Assembly (NCBI GenBank): GCA_017413085.1
Contig: JAFPVC010000061.1
Span: forward strand, 158,946-222,945
Direction: 5' to 3'
DNA from: Prevotella sp.
GTDB taxonomy: Bacteria; Bacteroidota; Bacteroidia; Bacteroidales; Bacteroidaceae
DNA: 64,000 bases
Each line of letters opens with the position of its first letter. Within the stretch, counting starts at the first letter, position 1. The notes below the pieces were generated by a model. That model ran no database searches, was not told the DNA's origin, and saw nothing but the letters and a program-made list of their open reading frames with translations. The translations under genes were made by a program, and so were the position numbers. Below, one piece after another: positions 6,393 through 23,669 of the stretch.

Positions 6393-9022
6393 GAATTATA
6401 TCAAGACATACATTCTGTAAAAGAATACTGACCGCCGCAGCACTGCTCGCTGTGCAGTTTGCTGCGTGCGTTACTCTCGTCAGGGCGCAGGAGAGAATAG
6501 TGAACCCTGACATCTCTTACGTGGCTCAGGTGAAGCCATACGTAGTAGGTGCGCTGCGGGTGAGCGGCGTTGAGGACTATGAGGAGTATATGCTTACGAG
6601 TATTTCTGGATTGTCGGTTGGTCAGCACATTGTCGTGCCCGGCAACGACATCACTGATGCAGTGAAGCGCTATTGGAAGCATGGACTGTTCTCCGACGTG
6701 AAGATTGCAGCAGACTCTATCGTGGGCGATTCAATCTTCCTGCATATATATCTGAAGACCCGTCCACGTGTGAGCGAGGTGAATTACTACGGTCTCAGCA
6801 AGAAGTCGGAGCGTGAGGACATGGACCAGAAACTCGGACTGCTGAAGGGTGCGCAGGTTACGCCCAACATGCTGGCGCGTGCCAAAATCCTTGCGGAACG
6901 CTACTTCGCCGACAAGGGTTTTAAGAATGCTGACATTAATATACGCCAGCGTGACGACGTGACGCAGAAGAACCACGTCATACTTGACATCGAGGTGGAC
7001 AAAAAGCAGAAGACAAAGATACGCAACATATATATCACCGGTAACAAAGATTTCACTGAGTCAGAACTTAAGGGCGGCCTGATAAAAAAGGGTGCGATAA
7101 AGAAAATGCACGAGGCGGGCAAGTTCCGCTCGTTCTTCAAGAGTTCCAAGTTCACCCCTGAGAAATTTAAGGAAGACAAGCAGGGCATAATAGAGTGGTA
7201 TAATGAGCATGGCTATCGCGACGCAGCTATACTGGCAGACAGCGTGGTGGGCGACGGCGGCAGACACGTTGACGTGTATCTGCATCTGACGGAAGGACAG
7301 AAGTATTACATCCGCAATATCACGTGGGCTGGCAATACTGTCTACAGCACAGAATATCTTTCGCGTCTGCTCACCATGCAGAAAGGCGATGTGTATAATC
7401 AGTCACTACTGAAGAAACGTCTGTCGGAAGACGACGATGCCGTGGGCAATGCCTATTGGAACAACGGTTACCTCTTCTATCAGCTCGACCCAGTGGAGGT
7501 GAATGTGGATGGCGACAGCATCGACCTTGAGATGCGTATAATGGAAGGACCGCAGGCGCATATCTCGCATGTGCGCATTACCGGTAACGACCGACTGTAT
7601 GAGAAGGTTGTGCGACGCGAACTGCGCACCAAGCCGGGTGACTTGTTCTCTAAGGATGCCCTGATGCGTTCGGCTCGCGAGATTGCCTCCATGGGACACT
7701 TTGACCAAGAGAAAGTAAATCCAGATATCAAGCCAAACACAGATGACGGCTCGGTAGACGTGAACTGGAACCTTGAGCAGAAGTCAAACGACCAGGTGGA
7801 GTTCTCACTCGGTTGGGGACAGACGGGTGTCATTGGTAAGGTCGGCTTGAAACTCAACAACTTCTCAATGGCCAACCTTTTCAATCGCAACAAGGAACAC
7901 CGCGGTATCATGCCTATAGGCGACGGTGAACAGTTTTCACTGAGTGCGCAGACCAACGGTACGTATTATCAGGCCTACAACATGTCGTATGCCACTGGCT
8001 GGTTTGGCGGTAAGCGTCCTATACAGTTCAGTGTTGGCGTGTTCTACTCCAAGCAGACAGACGTGAACTCCAACTACTACAACAACAGTTGGATGAACAG
8101 CTACTACGGTTTGTATAACAATTCCAACATCGAAAGCTATTATGACCCCGACAAGTATGTTCGTTTGCTTGGCGGCTCGCTCGGTTGGGGTAAGCGCTTG
8201 CGTTGGCCTGATGACTACTTCCAACTGTCGGTCAGCCTTGCCTACACTCGTTATATGCTGAAGAACTGGAGTTACTTCCTTGTAAGTTCGGGTAACTGTA
8301 ACAACCTTAACTTTAACGTGTCGCTCTCGCGTTCGTCAACGGATAACCCATACTTCCCGCGTCACGGTTCTGAGTTTGACCTGTCGCTCAGCATCACACC
8401 ACCATGGTCGTATTTCGATGGAAAGAACTATGCCGGACTGGCGCGGAATCCAAAGTCGGCTACCTATCGTGCAGAGCAGCAGGAGAAGTACCGCTGGATT
8501 GAATATCACAAGTGGAAGTTTAAGTCGCGCACCTATACCGCATTGAGTAGCGGCAACAGGTGTTTCGTGTTGATGACCCGCGTGGAGTTGGGTATACTCG
8601 GACACTTCAACAAGGACAAGAAGTCGCCGTTTGAAACATTCTATATGGGCGGCGATGGAATGTCAGGATATTCGAGCAGCTATGCAGAGGAAACCATAGG
8701 TTTGCGTGGCTATGAGAATGGTTCACTTACTCCTTATGGCTCTGAGGGCTATGCCTACGACCGCTTCGCCCTTGAACTGCGCTATCCGTTCATGCTCGGC
8801 AACACCACCATTTACGGACTGGGCTTCGTGGAGGCAGGTAATGCCTGGACGGATGTCAAGAAACTCAATCCTTTCGACATGAAGCGTTCTGCAGGCTTCG
8901 GCGTTCGTATCTTCCTGCCAATGGTGGGACTGATGGGACTTGACTGGGCTTACGGTTTCGACAAGGTAAGCGGCAGCAAGGGAGGCAGCAACTTCCACTT
9001 CATACTTGGTCAGGAGTTCTGA
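6389..9022 (+). CDS. bamA: Outer-membrane assembly factor BamA (Omp85)
   Basis: The central subunit of the barrel assembly machine, 877 residues. After a signal peptide ending near LVRAQ come repeated POTRA domains (about residues 50-470). They are recognisable by strands such as VVGALRVSGVEDY, RVSEVNYYGLSKKS, KIRNIYITGNKDFTE, YYIRNITWAGNTVYS and ISHVRITGNDRLYE, each followed by helix-rich segments. The C-terminal Omp85 barrel (about 480-877) contains the loop-6 motif GLRGYENGSLTP and ends in an aromatic Phe, as expected for a BamA substrate signal. The second POTRA has the Lys-rich KKQKTKIRN segment common in Bacteroidota. Translation is coupled to uppS through a 4-bp overlap, and Skp chaperones follow. 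Confidence 0.96.
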   Translation: MRIISRHTFCKRILTAAALLAVQFAACVTLVRAQERIVNPDISYVAQVKPYVVGALRVSGVEDYEEYMLTSISGLSVGQHIVVPGNDITDAVKRYWKHGLFSDVKIAADSIVGDSIFLHIYLKTRPRVSEVNYYGLSKKSEREDMDQKLGLLKGAQVTPNMLARAKILAERYFADKGFKNADINIRQRDDVTQKNHVILDIEVDKKQKTKIRNIYITGNKDFTESELKGGLIKKGAIKKMHEAGKFRSFFKSSKFTPEKFKEDKQGIIEWYNEHGYRDAAILADSVVGDGGRHVDVYLHLTEGQKYYIRNITWAGNTVYSTEYLSRLLTMQKGDVYNQSLLKKRLSEDDDAVGNAYWNNGYLFYQLDPVEVNVDGDSIDLEMRIMEGPQAHISHVRITGNDRLYEKVVRRELRTKPGDLFSKDALMRSAREIASMGHFDQEKVNPDIKPNTDDGSVDVNWNLEQKSNDQVEFSLGWGQTGVIGKVGLKLNNFSMANLFNRNKEHRGIMPIGDGEQFSLSAQTNGTYYQAYNMSYATGWFGGKRPIQFSVGVFYSKQTDVNSNYYNNSWMNSYYGLYNNSNIESYYDPDKYVRLLGGSLGWGKRLRWPDDYFQLSVSLAYTRYMLKNWSYFLVSSGNCNNLNFNVSLSRSSTDNPYFPRHGSEFDLSLSITPPWSYFDGKNYAGLARNPKSATYRAEQQEKYRWIEYHKWKFKSRTYTALSSGNRCFVLMTRVELGILGHFNKDKKSPFETFYMGGDGMSGYSSSYAEETIGLRGYENGSLTPYGSEGYAYDRFALELRYPFMLGNTTIYGLGFVEAGNAWTDVKKLNPFDMKRSAGFGVRIFLPMVGLMGLDWAYGFDKVSGSKGGSNFHFILGQEF

Positions 9023-9058
9023 TTAGGGAAAGCCCCTTGCTTCATAGGGATTTACATC

Positions 9059-9089
9059 TTGCACGCAGAAAGAAAAATAACTACTTTCG
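9059..9089 (+). promoter_or_regulatory. Possible internal promoter before the first skp gene
   Basis: TTG (9059-9061), 20 bp and TACTTTCG (9082-9089) resemble the -33/-7 consensus with one mismatch. It could let the chaperone genes be expressed apart from bamA. Confidence 0.35.
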
Positions 9090-9109
9090 CATCGTCTAAC
9101 AATTAAAAG

Positions 9110-9652
9110 ATGAAAGTTATGAAACAGATTACAAAGAAACTGACTGCCCTGGCAGTGATATTAGTTCTTCACTCTTCATTCTTCATCCTTCATTCAGAGG
9201 CACAGAAGTATGCTCTGATTGACATGGAATATATTCTGAAGAATGTTCCTGCATACGAGCGTGCCAACGAGCAACTCGCTCAGGTGAGCAAGCGTTGGCA
9301 GGCAGAGGTCGAGGCATTGACCACCGAGGCTTCAACCATGTATAAGAACTATCAGAACGAGGTTGTTTTCCTGTCGCAGGAACAGAAGCAGGCCAAGCAG
9401 GATGCCATAATGCAGAAAGAGAAAGAGGCTGCAGACCTGAAGAAGAAGTATTTCGGACCTGAAGGTGAATTGTTCAAGAAGCGCGAGAGCCTTATGTCTC
9501 CCATACAGGATGAGATATACAACGCCGTAAAGGAGGTGGCAGAGCTCCGTGGCTACCAGATGGTGCTCGACCGTGCCTCTGATAATGGCATCATCTTCGC
9601 TTCACCAAAGATTGACATTTCTAACGAAGTGTTGGGTAAACTGGGATATTAA
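9110..9652 (+). CDS. Skp/OmpH periplasmic chaperone, copy 1
   Basis: A 180-residue OmpH-family protein. Family members form periplasmic trimers with long coiled-coil arms that carry unfolded outer-membrane proteins to BamA. The core begins at YALIDMEYILKNVPAYERAN, continues as a long Glu/Gln/Lys-rich helix pair (about residues 50-140) and closes with GYQMVLDRASDNGIIFASPK, the returning body strand. The signal peptide is odd: VLHSSFFILHS comes from a repetitive CTTCAYTCTTCAT tract like the pyrimidine strand of the intergenic repeats. An ATG 9 bp downstream (9119) is an equally good start. Confidence 0.88.
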   Translation: MKVMKQITKKLTALAVILVLHSSFFILHSEAQKYALIDMEYILKNVPAYERANEQLAQVSKRWQAEVEALTTEASTMYKNYQNEVVFLSQEQKQAKQDAIMQKEKEAADLKKKYFGPEGELFKKRESLMSPIQDEIYNAVKEVAELRGYQMVLDRASDNGIIFASPKIDISNEVLGKLGY

Positions 9653-15985: not shown

Positions 15986-16498
15986 TTATTCCACAGACTT
16001 TACTTTCACCATTCTGTGAAGGACGTATATCAGATTGGCGGCAACGCCGACGATTCCTACTGCCATGCCAACAATGACACACGTATTCATTTGCATGGAC
16101 TGGCAGGACTGTTTTATTAAGTAGATGCTCGGCGGCAGCGTTATGATGCTGGTGATGAGCGCAGGAATGTAACTTCTGATGACGGTAGCCTGCACGAGAT
16201 GCACAACAAGGTGGATGGCGAAACCAACAAACACACCGAGCCACAGTCCATCAACGAAACTGTTGACGGTGACATCAGCCAACAGGCAGACGACTGTGAG
16301 CAGGACAAATTCCTCATATACGGCGGCTGCGAAGCGTGCCGTGCTGACATTCCTCATCGGTGCAAGCATACGCCTTGCTATAGGATAGCGTGCCGCTATG
16401 TCTTCATAACGTGAAGACACCCATTTCTCCATTCCGATGATTTCCTCCATGTCGTGAAACATGAAGAGAACCGGTAACATCCATATATACTTATCCAT
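15986..16498 (-). CDS. HXXEE-domain membrane protein
   Basis: A 170-residue integral membrane protein. The family-naming motif is present near the N-terminus in FMFHDMEEIIGMEKW (His-Asp-Met-Glu-Glu), followed by about four hydrophobic helices. The conserved His/Glu in the first helix are thought to bind metal or form an active site, but no reaction is established. Its start overlaps the end of the radical SAM gene by 8 bp, so it is translated from the same mRNA. In this setting it could process or export the peptide product. That role is inference only. Confidence 0.75.
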   Translation of the reverse strand: MDKYIWMLPVLFMFHDMEEIIGMEKWVSSRYEDIAARYPIARRMLAPMRNVSTARFAAAVYEEFVLLTVVCLLADVTVNSFVDGLWLGVFVGFAIHLVVHLVQATVIRSYIPALITSIITLPPSIYLIKQSCQSMQMNTCVIVGMAVGIVGVAANLIYVLHRMVKVKSVE

Positions 16499-17558
16499 TA
16501 TTCATTCTGTTATAATTGCATAGCATGAGATTACCGTCGTCATCACGCAGGTGCATTCCGTTTCCCTCGCAATAGCGCCACATGTCACATTCCTTACATT
16601 CACCTGTTTTCATCCATGAATGGTCGCGGTACAGCTGGAACCTGTTCTTCCATACGTCAGTGAACTTGTCCGTGTAAATGTTTCCCTGATGATATTTCGA
16701 GCGGATGCTCAGACAACCGGAGATGGAGCCGTCGCTCAGAATGGATGCTGCATTAGTTCCCGCTATGCACAGGAACTGATGATTGCGAACTTCATTCTCG
16801 TATTCACCAAGAAAGCCCTCGCAACTGTAACTTAGGTCTATCTTTCCTTCCCGCCGTGTCTCAACTATAAAATCCATTACCTGACGTATCTGGCTGTCTT
16901 CAAGGGTTAGTTCCGGATTATCCTTCGCCCTGCCCATCGGCACAATCGTAAACACCCGCCATTCCCTAACACCAATGCCGTAAAGGAAATCCTTGAACTC
17001 CGCAAGGGTAGCGATGTTGCGTCTGTTCACACATGTTATGACATCCCATTTGATATTGCTTTTGACCAAGGCCTTTATTGCGTTTACGGCATGAAGGAAA
17101 CTGTGGTCGTTGCCACGCATCCAGTTATGGTCTTCTTCAAATCCGTCAAGACTTATGGCAATAGTCCTCAGTCCGGCGGCAGTCAATTCCGAAAGTTTCT
17201 CCTCAGACAACAACATCCCGTTGCTGACCATTCCCCATGAAAAACCTTTTTCCGTAATTTTTCTTCCGCAGGAAACCAAATCTTTACGCACCAATGGCTC
17301 ACCGCCAGTCGTGATTACCAACACATTGCGGGGGTTCATTACACTGCTGATGTCGTCCAATACCTTCTCAAAATCCTCAAAAGGCATGTCGGGAGCAATG
17401 TCGTCCACCTTACAGTCGCTGCCACAGTGCAGACATTTGAGATTGCACCTCAGAGTACATTCCCAAAACAGTTGCATCAGTTGGCGACTATTCTTTCTTG
17501 CGTTGTTGATTCTCCTGTTTCTCTCTAATTGAATCAACTTTCTGAGCCCCACTGTCAT
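16491..17558 (-). CDS. Radical SAM/SPASM peptide-modifying enzyme
   Basis: A 355-residue enzyme from ATG 17558 (MTVGLRKLIQLERN). An ATG at 17636 adds 26 Arg-rich residues unlike the family. The iron-sulfur and SAM site is CNLKCLHC (Cys38, Cys42, Cys45), followed by ITTGGEPLVRKDL and VSNGMLL, the usual second and third SAM strands. The C-terminal SPASM part has CIAGTNAASILSDGSISGC, then CKECDMWRYCEGNG and a last CNYN, enough cysteines for two auxiliary clusters. SPASM enzymes typically modify ribosomal peptides. The likeliest substrate is the small YGPP protein encoded just upstream, whose 3' end overlaps this gene by 71 bp in another frame. It resembles the Bacteroidota rSAM/lipoprotein systems. 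Confidence 0.88.
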   Translation of the reverse strand: MTVGLRKLIQLERNRRINNARKNSRQLMQLFWECTLRCNLKCLHCGSDCKVDDIAPDMPFEDFEKVLDDISSVMNPRNVLVITTGGEPLVRKDLVSCGRKITEKGFSWGMVSNGMLLSEEKLSELTAAGLRTIAISLDGFEEDHNWMRGNDHSFLHAVNAIKALVKSNIKWDVITCVNRRNIATLAEFKDFLYGIGVREWRVFTIVPMGRAKDNPELTLEDSQIRQVMDFIVETRREGKIDLSYSCEGFLGEYENEVRNHQFLCIAGTNAASILSDGSISGCLSIRSKYHQGNIYTDKFTDVWKNRFQLYRDHSWMKTGECKECDMWRYCEGNGMHLRDDDGNLMLCNYNRMNNG

Positions 17559-17754
17559 TTTCTTCCGAATTTTGTTCAAACATAGATGGCGGACCATAGA
17601 TACAACGAATTTCCTCCTCCTCCTGTGGCGGGCCATACAGACGTGGAGCCCTTGCAGGATCTATCACTTTCCACAAAGTCCAAGCGCCAACTGTTGTTAT
17701 CGCTCCGACAATAACAGCTATTACGAGATATATTTTCTTTGTTATGCGTTTCAT
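17488..17754 (-). CDS. Small membrane-anchored peptide with twin YGPP motifs, candidate radical SAM substrate
   Basis: An 88-residue protein from ATG 17754. An N-terminal Lys/Arg patch and one hydrophobic helix (about residues 8-28) anchor or export it. The exposed part carries YGPP twice (residues 40-43 and 53-56), 13 residues apart, separated by an acidic run (QEEEEIRC). It then has a hydrophilic Glu/Lys/Gln tail. Duplicated aromatic-Gly-Pro-Pro motifs beside a SPASM enzyme are what a modified precursor would look like. No family function is known to me. The last 23 residues are encoded by DNA that also encodes the enzyme's start. It begins 29 bp after the upstream lipoprotein gene. Confidence 0.7.
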   Translation of the reverse strand: MKRITKKIYLVIAVIVGAITTVGAWTLWKVIDPARAPRLYGPPQEEEEIRCIYGPPSMFEQNSEENDSGAQKVDSIREKQENQQRKKE

Positions 17755-17783
17755 ACCTTTATTATTTACAGACACAAGACATA

Positions 17784-18386
17784 TCAGTTTCCCTTCACAT
17801 ATTCATCCATCTCCTGCAAGAGACTGTTGAAATTGTTTATGCGCCAGCTGTCATCCTCGTAGCGCATGGAGAGTTTAAGCGGTGTCACAGTCCCATAGTT
17901 GTGCAGTTCAAGGGTTACTGTTGCCACGCCCTTCTCTGCATCAATGCTTGCAACCTTGACTTTCTTTATTTTCAAATCGCCGTCATCCTGCGACATGCTC
18001 CAATAGTCGAAGTCAAAGAATCCCACTTCATCCTCCGACTCTGCATCCTTGTCATGCACTGCCTTCAATGCCTTGCGCCAAGCGTTTGTAGTGTAATTCT
18101 GTTCGAGTTTGGCGAAATCAGCAGACGTCTTTCTTTTTTTCACGGCTGCGTATATCTCCTTTACGCGTTCCACTATCTCTTCCTCCTGATTGACTTCGGC
18201 TTCCTCGTCAGCCTGCGCCTCGTCTGTTGCGGCAGCGGTTTTCATATTTGCAGCAGAGTCAGCAGACACGATGGAGTCGCTTCCAGCCGCCGCACTGTCG
18301 GTCTTGCCGCCACATGAAGAGAGCAACACGCATACACAAACTGCAAATGCCAATGGCAAAAAATGTCTCTTATCTGTAATATTCAT
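17784..18386 (-). CDS. Lipoprotein, first gene of the radical SAM operon
   Basis: A 200-residue lipoprotein with signal MNITDKRHFLPLAFAVCVCVLLSSC and lipobox LSSC-GG. After the lipid anchor comes a Ser/Ala/Asp/Glu-rich linker (about residues 26-70). A compact alpha+beta domain follows: VERVKEIYAAVKKRK, FFDFDYWSMSQDDGDLKIKKVKV, KGVATVTLELHNYGT and LKLSMRYEDDSWRINNF. The domain resembles the DUF3828/SnoaL-like folds of small Bacteroidota lipoproteins, but I cannot name a function. It is 29 bp from the YGPP peptide gene on the same strand, so it is probably part of that system, possibly as its receptor or display partner. Confidence 0.7.
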   Translation of the reverse strand: MNITDKRHFLPLAFAVCVCVLLSSCGGKTDSAAAGSDSIVSADSAANMKTAAATDEAQADEEAEVNQEEEIVERVKEIYAAVKKRKTSADFAKLEQNYTTNAWRKALKAVHDKDAESEDEVGFFDFDYWSMSQDDGDLKIKKVKVASIDAEKGVATVTLELHNYGTVTPLKLSMRYEDDSWRINNFNSLLQEMDEYVKGN

Positions 18387-18472: not shown

Positions 18473-21001
18473 TTACGGATGTACAGGACGCACACTGCAC
18501 CCACGGTTACGCCCACCGTAACGACCGCCGCCGCGGCCCACGGAATCCGAGCCGAAGTACGCGTACCACGCGCTGCTCGGGTAGTTCTCGTCGAGCGAAG
18601 CCAACCTGTAGTAGCCATACATGCTTTGGACGTAGAGGTACGCGTCTTCGCGAAACCCGGCAGCAGGAAGAAAAATGTGAGCATCACTAAGCGAATAAGT
18701 GGCAGATGTCGTAACAGTGCTACCTTGGGTCTTCTTCACGCCCATATCGTCAGGATTTTTTACCTTATATACTATGTAACCTGAGCCTTTACTGTTGTAG
18801 TTCGTTGTCCACTCCCAATAACAACTGTCGCGGAGTGCACTTAGCTCATTATATGTAGGCATGCGCCATGCACCGCCCCAGTTAGCAGCAGCGGCATCGT
18901 CGGCAATCTCAAGGGTTGTAAGGTTGTCTACTGTGCCGTAATCACTATCTATATTGTACTTGGTTAGAGTGGTTTGACTACCGTTGCACCATTTGTAGTT
19001 TTCCCAACTATAGTTATCCTTCGGTTCCGTCTCACCCCATGCGAAGTAAGCTCCATAGTTTTCAGGGTTCTCCGCACCTATGTTGCATTTTGCCCACTTG
19101 ACTGACAGCCCGAGGTCAACGTATTCATGGCCTTCCGCTGTCTGACCGTCTGTCTGCGAAGAGCCGCCATTCAGGTACATATTCACAATCATGTTGGCAT
19201 CGGCCATGGTAATATCATTGTCGCCATTCACGTCGGCAGTCGTCACGTCGAAGTCCAACGGTTTGGTGGTGGCGAGGTAGTAGTTGACCACCATGTTGGC
19301 GTCTGCCATGGTAATAGAACCGTCGTGGTTCACGTCGCCAGGCTGGTAAGTCTCCACGTTGGCATCAGGATTCTCTATCACTACTGCCGTGCCGGCCACA
19401 GGCGTGAGCGTTGTCGTTGTTGTACCGGACAGTTCCTTACCTGAGAAAGATACACTTATTTTGCAGAAGGTATTAACGGTGCCGTAGTATGCTGTGCGCG
19501 ATGGTGCGGTCACCTTGTATCCCTCTGCCGGAGTGAAGCCGCCGAGAGTCTGGAAGCACTGCTTCGTTCCATTCACACTGAGCTTTGAGTTCTCACCACC
19601 GACTTTCAGTGTGGTACGGTAGTAGATTGCCGTTGTTCCTGTTAGTCCTATACGACCAGTATTATACTCCCTACCCTGCACACCATAGTTGTCTGCGGTG
19701 ACGTTCACCGTTACCTTACCGTCGATGTCGAGGGTGTTGCTGCTGGTATTGTTCATCACAATACCGTTGCCGCCAGCGGTGACGTTGAGCGTACCTGTGC
19801 CACCGATTACCACGTTGCGTGAGTTTGCGAATACGCCTGTGCCTGCGGCAGATGAAATGCTACAGTCGCCCACCACGTTTATGCGAAGCGTGTCGAGGGT
19901 GGTACGCAGTGCATAGCCGCCTGCCACTGTCATCTCCGTTATGCTGGCATCTTCCAGATACAGTGTCTTTGTCCTATTGTCGTATGATACCTTGCCCGTA
20001 ACGCCGGGGATGGCGGTGAGGTCCTTGCTGTTTATAGTCGTTATTGATGTTTCCGCCAACTTGACATCAAAGGTATCTACCTTAGTAAAGTAGCCAGTTT
20101 CAGGGTTGGCATATTTCGCATCCGTCATTGATATCAATGTGCTGTATTCTAAGGCTCCACTCAACTCATAACAGCCTTTAAACATATCCTTCGACACCAA
20201 GTTTATTCTCTGCCAATCATCGTTACAATATATTGTCGTAAGCGCCGAACAATACCAGAACATTTGACACATATCCGTCACGTTAGAGGTATTGAAACTT
20301 CTAAGGTCGAGATTCAAAAGCGACTCACAATAAAAGAACATGCCAAACATCTTCTTCACGTTAGAGGTATTGAAGTTGCTGACATTAAGGCTCGTAAGTG
20401 AGTAGCATTGATAGAACATACAACTCATATCCGTCACACTGGAGGTGTTAAAACTGCTAAGATCAAGACTTGTCAGTTGCTCACAACCATAGAACATGCT
20501 AATCATATCCGTAACGTTGGAGGTATCAAAATTACTAAGGTCAAGACTCTTAAGCGACTTACAAAAACTGAACATACTATGCATGTCCGTCACGTTGGAG
20601 GTGTTAAAACCGCTAATATCAAGACTTGTAAGCAACTCACAACCATAGAACATATTACTCATATCTGTCACACTTGAGGTGTTTAGATTTTCAATACCTT
20701 CTATCTTATGAAGAAACTTTATGTTTTCAAACCAACCGTGGCACGACAAAGGTCTTGCACTTGAAAATTCATCCATAAAACGCACAACCTTGATTTTGAA
20801 CCTAAAGGCACTCCACGGTTGCTCTGTTCCAGTATTCGACACTTCCCATGCATTTGTTTCCGGCAGTGTTCCCACGGTGAAACACAGTATGGAATCGTTT
20901 TCAATGTAAGCATAAGGGAAAGCTGGGTCGGCTTTAGCCCCTGTAAGCATTGTTACAAGCGCAAAGATTAGAAGGTAAATCCTCTTTGTTTTAGTTTTCA
21001 T
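18473..21001 (-). CDS. BspA-type leucine-rich repeat surface protein with dockerin and FISUMP domains
   Basis: A secreted protein of 842 residues. After the signal peptide (ends near LTGAKA) come about seven BspA/DUF285-type repeats (about residues 90-290) built on the pattern SLDLSNFNTSNVTDMxxMF. Then there is a beta-rich region (about 310-545). A dockerin type I-like pair follows (about 550-620) with calcium-loop sequences GDVNHDGSITMADAN and ADVNGDNDITMADAN. The C-terminal FISUMP domain starts at YVDLGLSVKWAKCNIGAENP. BspA repeats in relatives bind host or matrix proteins, and FISUMP domains are found in fibre-associated proteins. A partner cohesin is not visible here. It is expressed from a strong promoter with a 150-nt leader. 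Confidence 0.85.
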   Translation of the reverse strand: MKTKTKRIYLLIFALVTMLTGAKADPAFPYAYIENDSILCFTVGTLPETNAWEVSNTGTEQPWSAFRFKIKVVRFMDEFSSARPLSCHGWFENIKFLHKIEGIENLNTSSVTDMSNMFYGCELLTSLDISGFNTSNVTDMHSMFSFCKSLKSLDLSNFDTSNVTDMISMFYGCEQLTSLDLSSFNTSSVTDMSCMFYQCYSLTSLNVSNFNTSNVKKMFGMFFYCESLLNLDLRSFNTSNVTDMCQMFWYCSALTTIYCNDDWQRINLVSKDMFKGCYELSGALEYSTLISMTDAKYANPETGYFTKVDTFDVKLAETSITTINSKDLTAIPGVTGKVSYDNRTKTLYLEDASITEMTVAGGYALRTTLDTLRINVVGDCSISSAAGTGVFANSRNVVIGGTGTLNVTAGGNGIVMNNTSSNTLDIDGKVTVNVTADNYGVQGREYNTGRIGLTGTTAIYYRTTLKVGGENSKLSVNGTKQCFQTLGGFTPAEGYKVTAPSRTAYYGTVNTFCKISVSFSGKELSGTTTTTLTPVAGTAVVIENPDANVETYQPGDVNHDGSITMADANMVVNYYLATTKPLDFDVTTADVNGDNDITMADANMIVNMYLNGGSSQTDGQTAEGHEYVDLGLSVKWAKCNIGAENPENYGAYFAWGETEPKDNYSWENYKWCNGSQTTLTKYNIDSDYGTVDNLTTLEIADDAAAANWGGAWRMPTYNELSALRDSCYWEWTTNYNSKGSGYIVYKVKNPDDMGVKKTQGSTVTTSATYSLSDAHIFLPAAGFREDAYLYVQSMYGYYRLASLDENYPSSAWYAYFGSDSVGRGGGRYGGRNRGCSVRPVHP

Positions 21002-21158
21002 ACTCTTTTTGTTTATTGATTTATATTCTAAATATTCATGAATACCTATCTTATTGCCCCTGTCTTGATATCAGCTGTCCTCCATTTATACGACAATACT
21101 CTGCAACATCAGTGACCATTGACTGAAACGACTGCGTGTGACAATATGATTACGAGTA

Positions 21159-21188
21159 CAAAGTTACGAACTTTTTCTGAAACAGCAA
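21159..21188 (-). promoter_or_regulatory. Promoter of the BspA-like gene
   Basis: Minus-strand TTTG (21188-21185), 18 bp and TAACTTTG (21166-21159). The spacer reads GTTTCAGAAAAAGTT, nearly identical to the promoter at 23.9 kb. Confidence 0.65.
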
Positions 21189-21345
21189 AATAATTGCGTT
21201 GTTTTCCAAGAAAATGACTCACGCAGATTGTAAGGGATTGTAAGGGATGATTGTATCTCCCACAGATATATTGATTTAACCACTCGCACAGATACCGCAG
21301 ATACCACAGATTTTTCGTTGACGAATTCGCAGTATCGATAATATA

Positions 21346-21455
21346 GTGAAAATGAAAAGTGAAAAGTGAAAAGTGAAAAATACGTTGGTGACATAGACTT
21401 GATGATAAGTCTAAACGTAACCTGTATTCTTCACTTTTCACTATTCACTTTTCAC
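21346..21455. repeat. Long inverted repeat made of GTGAAAA heptamers
   Basis: Left arm 21346-21384 (GTGAAAA units) pairs with right arm 21423-21455 (TTTTCAC units). Inside, ACGTT/AACGT and AGACTT/AAGTCT form a nested hairpin. It lies between the two dockerin/FISUMP genes. A second element of this design occurs at 34.4 kb. The rest of 21189-21345 holds only a short direct repeat (TTGTAAGGGA). Confidence 0.75.
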
Positions 21456-21482
21456 TCCTCGCATAGCGAGGTCCTGCAAGTC

Positions 21483-23669
21483 TTACGGAAGTACCATACG
21501 GACGGGTCTATAATCATATATCATAGACCATTGATTAGTTAAAGTAGTTTCACATCTTATTTCTCCATTTGGTCCAGCTTTTTCCAGGCCTCCCCAATAT
21601 CTACAATACCCTTTATAATATTCATAAACGGAATAGCCTTCATACTTATTATGTTCATACTTTACAGTTACATCAACAGCTGGCAAGAAAATGCTATTAC
21701 CGTTTAGGGGGCTCACAACCTCAAAGCCCTCACAACCGTTATACTTTGAGTTTCCTTTTTCAAACCACTCCCAATCACAACAATGTTCAAGTTCCCACCA
21801 TTCTTTATATTCAGGTTCACGCCATGCGCCTCCCCAACTAAACTCAGCCATATATCTATAATCATATTCACTACCACTTTCATAAGATCGTAATGCACCT
21901 ACATTGCAGGTTGCCCACTTTACCGACAGACCGAGGTCTACATACATGTGACCATTGGCTGGGTCGGTGTACTCCTGCATTCCTGCACCACTGAGGAACG
22001 AATTCACTATTTGGTTGGCATCAGCCATGGTAACAGCAGGATTGCCATCATCGTCGTAATCGTCGTTCACGTTGGCAAGGTGAATGAGGAATCCCTCTGG
22101 CTTCTCCACTGCAAGGTAGTAGTTCACCACGGCATTGGCATCAGCCATGGTAATTGCACCATCTTGGTTCACGTCACCGAGATAGCTTGGCAATGCCGAG
22201 AATATACGATACAACTTGGCTGACGTATTGCTGATTTTACAATAAACTCCTGGAACTTCGGAAATTTCCATAGATGCAGTATCCCCATTTACGACAAACT
22301 GCGTGCTATTGAGTTTATAACTCTGACTTAAACTTGAACTAATTCTCAGATATATATTACCACCCAGAGAAAACTGCTTTCCGCTGACGGGTGCCACCGA
22401 CATTTCCACTCCATACATCTTGCCTTGCTGGAATTTATCACCGCGTTCCAGTTCTTTTCCTCCTACTTCAAACCACTTTATCTCATTCACCAGACAGTCT
22501 TCACCCTGAAAATGCTCCTTGGCATTTGCCTCCAGCAATGCACCGGCGGCTTTTGCTCCAGCTGCCGTAGCAATCTCCCACTGTGGTTCTTCTCCTATTA
22601 CCGGAGCGGTGATGTTTTCTTTTACCTCGCGTATATATGCACCGCCCTCAGGTGTGGGCACAGGATAAGTGAACACGAAGTCTTGCTTACTTGCTGTTGC
22701 GCCAGCCACTTTAAAATTTTGCGTTACGTAAGTGCCATCTCTCCATATATATGCTTTGACATCATCAGCAAACTTATAATTATCCTTCAATTCCACCGTG
22801 AAACGTATACCGAGATTATTACCTGCGTATCCCTCGTAATTTTCCCATATTTTACCGTACATGTTATATTCCACGTTTACTGACTTCACACCTTTAGTAG
22901 AACTTGTCACATTGTAGTCGGCAGGTACGAAGTCAACTGGCCATGCGTAGTTGTTGATATATATATATTTTAGAGTTGTACTTATCGTAACCCACTCGTT
23001 CTTCACGCTGCTGCCGTTGGCATCATATACTGTTCCATTCTTAACATACACTCCGTATGGGTCTGTGAAAATCTGACCATCATTGAGGATAATGCTCTTA
23101 AGATTGTGGAAGCACTCCTCCAAACCCCGAACCTTGACTTCTGTGCTGGCATCAGATACACTCATCTTCGTTTTACTGTTGCTGCTCTGCACACCGTAGT
23201 TTGTGGTGCCGTCGAGCGTCAGTTTAATTCCATTGTATATATGAAGGTTGTTATCCTCCTCAGAAGACATTGTTATAGCAGTACCAGCATTGATAGAGAG
23301 AACATCCTCACCAGAACTAAAACCAAATATTTCCAACGAACCAGTGCTAACTATTCCTGAGCTATTTGAAATGAGCTTACTGTTACCTTGCACTCCGATT
23401 TGGAGTTCTGGCATTTCGCTGTATACAGCAGCCTGACCATAACCATTGTTAGCCGTTGCAGTAATCGTGGCGTTTTTTATATAAAGCCTATTGACGTTAG
23501 GAACAAACGTTACCGTGCCGTTATCGACGGGTATGTTAGTCCTGTTATCATCAGTCACTTGCACGCCGGCGACCCACAAATTATACTTCTCTGCACTGAC
23601 GTTCATGGCCGTTGCCACGAGCAATAAGAATAAGAGGCATATCCGCCTCAACATGTTTACATTTTTCAT
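21483..23669 (-). CDS. Secreted dockerin/FISUMP surface protein
   Basis: A secreted protein of 728 residues with signal peptide ending at VSAEK. The N-terminal 250 residues are Asn/Ser-rich beta strands (IKNATITATANNGYGQ, LHIYNGIKLTLDGTTNYGVQSS) that look like a beta-helix or carbohydrate-binding region. A middle domain follows. A dockerin-like pair (about 495-570) has GDVNQDGAITMADAN and then a second loop interrupted by extra acidic residues (ANVNDDYDDDGNPAVTMADAN). A shortened FISUMP domain starts near residue 576 (YVDLGLSVKWATCNVGA). It shares domain order and close sequence with the 842-residue neighbour but has no BspA repeats. A role in attachment or fibre handling is plausible. Ligands are unknown. 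Confidence 0.8.
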   Translation of the reverse strand: MKNVNMLRRICLLFLLLVATAMNVSAEKYNLWVAGVQVTDDNRTNIPVDNGTVTFVPNVNRLYIKNATITATANNGYGQAAVYSEMPELQIGVQGNSKLISNSSGIVSTGSLEIFGFSSGEDVLSINAGTAITMSSEEDNNLHIYNGIKLTLDGTTNYGVQSSNSKTKMSVSDASTEVKVRGLEECFHNLKSIILNDGQIFTDPYGVYVKNGTVYDANGSSVKNEWVTISTTLKYIYINNYAWPVDFVPADYNVTSSTKGVKSVNVEYNMYGKIWENYEGYAGNNLGIRFTVELKDNYKFADDVKAYIWRDGTYVTQNFKVAGATASKQDFVFTYPVPTPEGGAYIREVKENITAPVIGEEPQWEIATAAGAKAAGALLEANAKEHFQGEDCLVNEIKWFEVGGKELERGDKFQQGKMYGVEMSVAPVSGKQFSLGGNIYLRISSSLSQSYKLNSTQFVVNGDTASMEISEVPGVYCKISNTSAKLYRIFSALPSYLGDVNQDGAITMADANAVVNYYLAVEKPEGFLIHLANVNDDYDDDGNPAVTMADANQIVNSFLSGAGMQEYTDPANGHMYVDLGLSVKWATCNVGALRSYESGSEYDYRYMAEFSWGGAWREPEYKEWWELEHCCDWEWFEKGNSKYNGCEGFEVVSPLNGNSIFLPAVDVTVKYEHNKYEGYSVYEYYKGYCRYWGGLEKAGPNGEIRCETTLTNQWSMIYDYRPVRMVLP

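Follow-up and report, generated by a model that had tools for sequence, protein, structure and literature searches.

At X-Y-G sites, naturally MYG and LYG, a tyramine equivalent is removed by the splicease PlpXY (PMC10533398). The splice site is Xaa-Tyr-Gly, PlpX is placed in IPR026482, and PlpY is a recognition element (RRE) protein for ribosomally synthesized and post-translationally modified peptides (RiPPs) (PMC11002830). The PlpXY tags include GPIRPLYGLPI, GGPIRPGYGLPI and GAVAAGYGVVFPG, and the published form is PIRP[L/G]YGLPI (PMC10533398). A radical S-adenosylmethionine (SAM) enzyme and lipoprotein pair, TIGR04133 ("rSAM_w_lipo") and TIGR04134 ("lipo_with_rSAM"), was named by NCBI as hypothetical (NCBIfam type hypoth_equivalog), with no reaction given. 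IPR026482 is presumably the family TIGR04103 ("nif11-class peptide radical SAM maturase 3"). Here we analyzed a minus-strand gene cluster of Prevotella sp. in which a TIGR04133 enzyme adjoins an 88-residue membrane peptide with two YGPP motifs. The cluster lies within a stretch of 64,000 nucleotides, called the window below (contig JAFPVC010000061.1, positions 158,946 to 222,945). We favor, with fair confidence, the reading that the enzyme and the peptide form a divergent radical SAM/lipoprotein cassette of the TIGR04133 kind and that, judged from sequence comparison, this kind is most likely a splicease.

The window enzyme is a member of TIGR04133, and its partner is encoded directly upstream and carries YGxP. 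This motif is also found in the named pairs of Parabacteroides distasonis (EYGSP) and a Treponema saccharophilum plasmid (CYGMP). The window partner is not, however, a member of TIGR04134; it is an 88-residue protein with a plain membrane helix, two YGPP motifs and no lipobox. With PlpXY, the locus shares an X-Y-G site (LYG and IYG in the window peptide) and a SPASM enzyme, and L-Y-G-x-P occurs in the PlpXY tags and in a Nostoc precursor. The tree described below also puts the two kinds of enzyme in one clade, although the alternative was not rejected (p-AU 0.077). It differs from PlpXY in that the enzyme falls far below the TIGR04103 cutoff, the partners are membrane-anchored, the window partner has no Nif11 leader (no leader family matched), and no third conserved gene was found in place of PlpY among ORFs of at least 70 residues. 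TIGR03913 ("GDL motif peptide-associated radical SAM/SPASM maturase"), whose peptides are of the DUF1843 type, falls into one tree group with TIGR04103 and TIGR04133, and several of its small peptides have X-Y-G near the N-terminus (LYGGA, PYGVA, PYGPA). These peptides are short and without an evident membrane anchor, in contrast to the window partner; Pro at +3 is not conserved among them, and in some the Gly is replaced by M or A (PMYMAT, LYAAG).

A TIGR04133 enzyme and its motif-bearing partners

The enzyme matched TIGR04133 at 538.1 bits (curated cutoff 425) over positions 1-349 of the 350 in the profile, and Pfam placed Radical_SAM and SPASM domains on it. It is the enzyme half of the NCBI "rSAM/lipoprotein" pair TIGR04133/TIGR04134. 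The first-pass annotation, which had missed the named family, had proposed the gene set as a candidate undescribed operon; since the enzyme belongs to a named family, with TIGR04134 as its usual partner family, the view that the set as a whole is undescribed is not supported. One TIGR04133 match was present in the window's genome, which is 79% complete. The full open frame spans 16491-17636 (381 residues). An AlphaFold2 model gave a mean predicted local distance difference test score (pLDDT) of 86.5 and a predicted template modeling score of 0.85. Residues 1-26 of the open frame were below a pLDDT of 50 and the family profile begins at residue 31, so the true start is probably Met27 (17558), giving an enzyme of 355 residues at 16491-17558. 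In the numbering of the 381-residue frame, the CX3CX2C site (C64, C68 and C71; 17424-17447) and the seven SPASM cysteines (272, 290, 308, 347, 350, 356 and 373; 16518-16823) are present as first described and were invariant in 39 aligned rows. This alignment excluded locus L124, and start positions for L099 and L132 were assigned afterwards. Identity to the 38 aligned homologues ranged from 51 to 65%.

The peptide gene occupies 17488-17754 and encodes 88 residues from an ATG; a GTG at 17775 would give 95 residues. The single hydrophobic stretch (residues 8-26, 17677-17733; mean Kyte-Doolittle value 2.05 over 19 residues) and the two YGPP motifs 13 residues apart were confirmed. The motifs, read from the sequence, are LYGPP (Leu39-Pro43, 17626-17640), with Tyr40, and IYGPP (Ile52-Pro56, 17587-17601), with Tyr53. 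A Lys/Arg-rich end followed by the helix suggests a membrane-anchored peptide with its N-terminus inside and its C-terminus outside. The lipobox cysteine of most counterparts is absent, and the window copy is a divergent form with a membrane helix in place of the lipobox and two motifs. No family match was found in Pfam, or in NCBIfam at E 1, where TIGR04134 (cutoff 39.8 bits) likewise gave no match. Used as a phmmer query against the open reading frames (ORFs) of other TIGR04133 loci, the peptide found 15 matches (E 0.01 or better), each to a YGxP-bearing ORF from the same clusters. A search for orthologues of the entire peptide in 399 genomes of the window's family, its own included, returned only four weak matches besides itself (L160, L163, L167 and L168; E 0.0017-0.006), and true whole-length orthologues were rejected on this result. 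Two of the four were viewed (L167 and L168) and are YGPP lipoproteins adjoining a CX3CX2C enzyme that reads like TIGR04133. The position of the peptide and its twin motif match the YGxP partners at TIGR04133 loci, which makes it the probable substrate of the enzyme.

Pairing was then measured across loci. In a search of the window's genome and 99 relatives, 26 of the 100 had a TIGR04133 match over cutoff. This search contributed 33 places: 31 matches over cutoff, one of them the window's, plus two that scored 333 and 336 bits. Added to these were 80 named loci, kept as the best 80 out of 96 and, to judge by their titles, drawn mostly from rumen and gut assemblies of Bacteroidales. After removal of one near-identical copy, L057, 112 distinct loci remained. 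A motif ORF was defined as a frame of 40-300 residues on the same strand, ending at most 1.6 kb upstream or starting at most 0.9 kb downstream of the enzyme, with YGxP or YGPx. Such an ORF was found at 101 of the 112 loci (102 of 113 with a looser duplicate filter), which supports the proposal that peptide and enzyme form a pair. By our own lipobox rule (a hydrophobic run plus Cys), a lipobox-like motif ORF was near the enzyme at 98 of the 112 loci. These make up 98 of the 101 motif loci; the others are L031, the window, L097 and L143, of which L143 was counted as a motif locus though the start of its frame may be wrong. The motif was carried by 132 of the 179 lipobox-like ORFs near the enzyme vs 13 of 370 farther off (Fisher p 7e-70, which serves only as a guide since related ORFs are treated as independent). 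As a control, 30 loci of anaerobic sulfatase maturase, a SPASM enzyme, were taken from genomes of the window's family. Any motif ORF was present at 4 of 30 and a lipobox-like one at 1 of 30, the latter apparently spurious; the same measure applied to the TIGR04133 loci gave 103 and 98 of 112, respectively.

Conservation of YG-P among the counterparts, set beforehand as a test, was also found, while the rest of the partner protein was not conserved. The scaffolds include TIGR04134-like domains, coiled-coil-like chains, short acidic tails and a TonB C-terminal domain; of seven counterparts scanned with TIGR04134, one was over the cutoff and two matched below it. In most ORFs, the first Tyr comes 1 to 170 residues past the lipobox Cys (one value falls before the Cys), and each ORF has from one to three motifs. 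Across 176 distinct motif windows, from the lipobox ORFs and the window's peptide, the residue before Tyr was V in 75, L in 27, C in 24, E in 14, and M and I in 12 each. Position +2 was P in 66, S in 51, T in 20 and V in 20, and position +3 was P in 159. Eleven loci had no strict motif nearby. Seven of these carry a Tyr variant (YATP in L120, L121 and L134; YGIR in L136; YGVR and YGTF in L034; YGMA in L124; YGSW in L036), one has YGPRP about 1.0 kb downstream of the enzyme, beyond the reach of the motif rule (L054), one is cut off by its contig end (L125), and two have nothing.

The pair was also found outside Bacteroidota. Plasmid pTS1 of the spirochaete Treponema saccharophilum (L182:2743-5035) carries it, with the partner motif in SCYGMPENYY, next to a gene for an Mpi-family serine invertase. 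This placement on a plasmid beside an invertase gene suggests horizontal transfer of the pair out of Bacteroidota. At L049 (about 7923-9129), two lipoproteins of 197 and 200 residues with twin YGPPP motifs and a C-terminal domain lie downstream of the enzyme, and the first matched the TonB C-terminal model at 54.6 bits (cutoff 27.1).

Proposed tyramine excision and competing chemistries

The chemistry of the family was approached through its relatives. A tree of 39 rows was built from 16 TIGR04133 enzymes, 15 splicease-like enzymes and 8 outgroup rows (PqqE, MftC, NirJ, an AhbD-like row and TIGR04053), with L180 and L204 left out. The TIGR04133 and splicease-like enzymes formed one clade with support 98/92, seen before the approximately unbiased (AU) tests were run. 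Ser73, His170, Trp226, Gly274 and Ser310 occur in every one of the 31 rows of the clade and in 0 to 2 rows among the other 8; these residues were picked by their conservation, after the fact. When six sister enzymes were scanned, TIGR04133 ranked next after TIGR03913 and TIGR04103 in four, and AhbD preceded it in the other two, the Nostoc enzyme included. That enzyme, from a plasmid of Nostoc sp. C057, scored 853 bits with TIGR04103 (cutoff 725) and adjoins a Nif11-leader precursor ending in ALYGLPPELF, so that LYGxP is common to this precursor and the window peptide (LYGPP). An X-Y-G peptide, judged by eye, was beside the splicease-like enzyme in 10 of 17 sister loci viewed (L172-L181, L185, L190, L191 and L201-L204). 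These peptides include DUF1843 peptides with LYGGA, PYGVA or PYGPA, a 35-residue ORF ending in MYGTGVRM in Agathobacter, and LYGTP in L175. From these likenesses we infer tyramine excision for TIGR04133. No true TIGR04103 member was over cutoff in 345 Bacteroidota genomes. Assigning the enzyme solely from its top-scoring family model was tried and rejected, because TIGR04103 is outscored by heme-type models. L186 (3928-6059), from a genome of the window's family, encodes a radical SAM enzyme like TIGR03913 and TIGR04103 (233 and 218 bits), followed by a 214-residue protein in which KYGYP is repeated six times, five times as KYGYPC; this protein is a possible multi-site substrate.

In the proposed mechanism, the enzyme would excise most of a tyrosine (tyramine, C8H9NO) from the peptide backbone at each YG site and leave a reactive alpha-ketoamide (keto group) on a membrane-anchored protein. 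About 135 Da would be lost per site and about 270 Da in all from the window peptide. The N-terminal helix, with its Lys/Arg-rich end inside, would keep the segment with its two modified sites at the outer surface of the inner membrane, the ketoamides facing the periplasm; in most relatives, the lipobox would make the modified segment part of a lipoprotein. Alpha-ketoamides are electrophilic. Since spliceotides are reported to inhibit proteases (PMC10373908; PMC11117315), anchored protease trapping is a fair guess, and a role as anchored inhibitor or trap is plausible by analogy. More tentatively, the whole TIGR04133 family may be a splicease clade that requires no RiPP leader and no RRE partner and installs alpha-ketoamides in membrane-anchored lipoproteins. 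Gut and rumen Bacteroidales would then display protease-trapping beta-amino-acid proteins at the envelope, and the window peptide would be a variant with a transmembrane anchor and two sites. We regard this wider proposal as possible, somewhat short of probable.

Several observations weigh against a splicease acting at the envelope. The window enzyme scored only 113.5 bits with TIGR04103, far below the cutoff of 725, and TIGR04053 (143.9) and the heme-type AhbD (141.5) and NirJ2 (135.4) scored above TIGR04103 on it, as did NirJ. Holding TIGR04133 with the non-PqqE outgroups cost 6.95 log units and was not rejected (p-AU 0.077; the outgroup has only 8 rows). Seven of the 17 sister loci had no convincing X-Y-G peptide (L174, L176, L178-L181 and L202). 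PlpX works with the RRE protein PlpY (PMC11002830), yet no third conserved gene was found at TIGR04133 loci among ORFs of at least 70 residues; PlpY is small and no RRE-profile scan was made. PlpXY accepted 2 of 16 tag insertions in FtsZ, and one tag without Pro at +3 was tried (PMC10533398). The two loci with no motif ORF are L065 and L094; L065 has the highest identity to the window (65%), so its lack of a motif counts against the reading. The anchors also vary, which makes a single envelope role doubtful. The nearest enzyme by tree path, L064, has a 54-residue tail-anchored partner (L064:3113-3277) with VYGPPPP near its N-terminus, and by charge this motif probably stays in the cytoplasm. 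Soluble YGCP proteins of 89 and 88 residues (VYGCP and TYGCP) adjoin the enzyme just upstream in L069 and L095, respectively, with YGxP lipoproteins farther upstream.

The main alternative keeps Tyr of YGxP as the target and changes the reaction, with another SPASM-type chemistry (a Tyr crosslink or cyclophane, beta-carbon oxidation, or side-chain loss leaving Gly) in place of tyramine excision and rejoining. SPASM enzymes do many reactions, TIGR04133 is about equal in score with several model families, and other placements are compatible with the AU test. Nevertheless, Gly is conserved after Tyr and the residue before Tyr is free to vary, which fits the splicease X-Y-G rule, and the same LYGxPP occurs in the Nostoc TIGR04103 precursor, so we judge this alternative unlikely. 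It bears on the earlier proposal that the YGPP motifs are the modified sites, with a loss of 2 Da or a crosslinked Tyr as the product. The site itself has held up, since YG-P is co-occurring and conserved and is the likely point of modification; the proposed product is less likely than tyramine excision, with its change of about -135 Da per site. A very improbable alternative is that YGxP is a docking or sorting signal only and that the enzyme acts elsewhere or on another molecule. The few loci without a strict motif and the very variable distance between lipobox and motif would suit a signal of this kind. No other feature was seen in common among the otherwise unlike scaffolds, however; each protein has the motif one to three times, and the variants YATP, YGIR, YGVR, YGMA and YGSW all retain Tyr.

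If YGxP is read as a splicease site, the TIGR04133 family gains a concrete reaction (about -135 Da per motif), and reactive ketoamides are predicted on bacterial membrane proteins. What is apparently new here is a set of splicease-like enzymes that would act on membrane-anchored proteins without a leader or RRE partner and, in the window, a twin-site peptide in which a transmembrane anchor replaces the lipid. If true, such variants may need no leader or RRE and would be useful for protein labelling. The splicease survey of Scott et al. 2022, going by its title and the papers that cite it, may already include such enzymes. No paper on the TIGR04133 name or on the TIGR04133/TIGR04134 pair was found in the PMC literature searched, and the available portion of a Bacteroidales RiPP survey (PMC10352776) has no occurrence of "lipoprotein" or "TIGR04".

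Neighboring genes in the window

Two further genes flank the pair. Upstream is a 200-residue lipoprotein (17784-18386) that matched Pfam DUF3828 at 36.8 bits (cutoff 26), and downstream is a 170-residue protein (15986-16498) that matched Pfam HXXEE at 93.8 bits (cutoff 25). All four genes are on the minus strand, and the gaps of 29, -71 and -8 bp were reproduced from the ORFs with the starts given above. Given their tight spacing on a single strand, with an 8-bp overlap between the HXXEE and enzyme genes, the four genes may be co-transcribed. The first-pass annotation had gone further and proposed that all four form one functional operon, in which maturation or export of the product falls to the HXXEE membrane protein. 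This is highly improbable. No homologue of the HXXEE protein or of the upstream lipoprotein was found by phmmer (E 0.01) in the stretches of sequence analyzed around 112 other TIGR04133 loci, 111 of them distinct (the list of 113 less the window). Of 399 family genomes, 30 contained an HXXEE relative, one of these being the window's own; six neighborhoods were viewed from the other 29 genomes, including those of the two closest relatives (57% and 55%), and the TIGR04133 enzyme was not seen in them. The HXXEE protein was rejected as a functional partner on both kinds of neighborhood. The DUF3828 lipoprotein was rejected as partner or substrate, having no homologue at other loci and no YGxP, only an NYGTV stretch inside the domain. 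Both look like chance neighbors.

Clustering of neighboring ORFs of at least 70 residues found no third conserved gene at TIGR04133 loci. The largest motif-free cluster covered 17 loci, with an example that is shikimate-kinase-like by eye, and was taken as shared gene order in one lineage. Upstream of the four genes in the window (18473-23669) are two large proteins of 842 and 728 residues with dockerin-like repeats (GDVN.DG.ITMADAN), and the first of these, the 842-residue protein, has BspA-like leucine-rich repeats as well, both features being read by eye.

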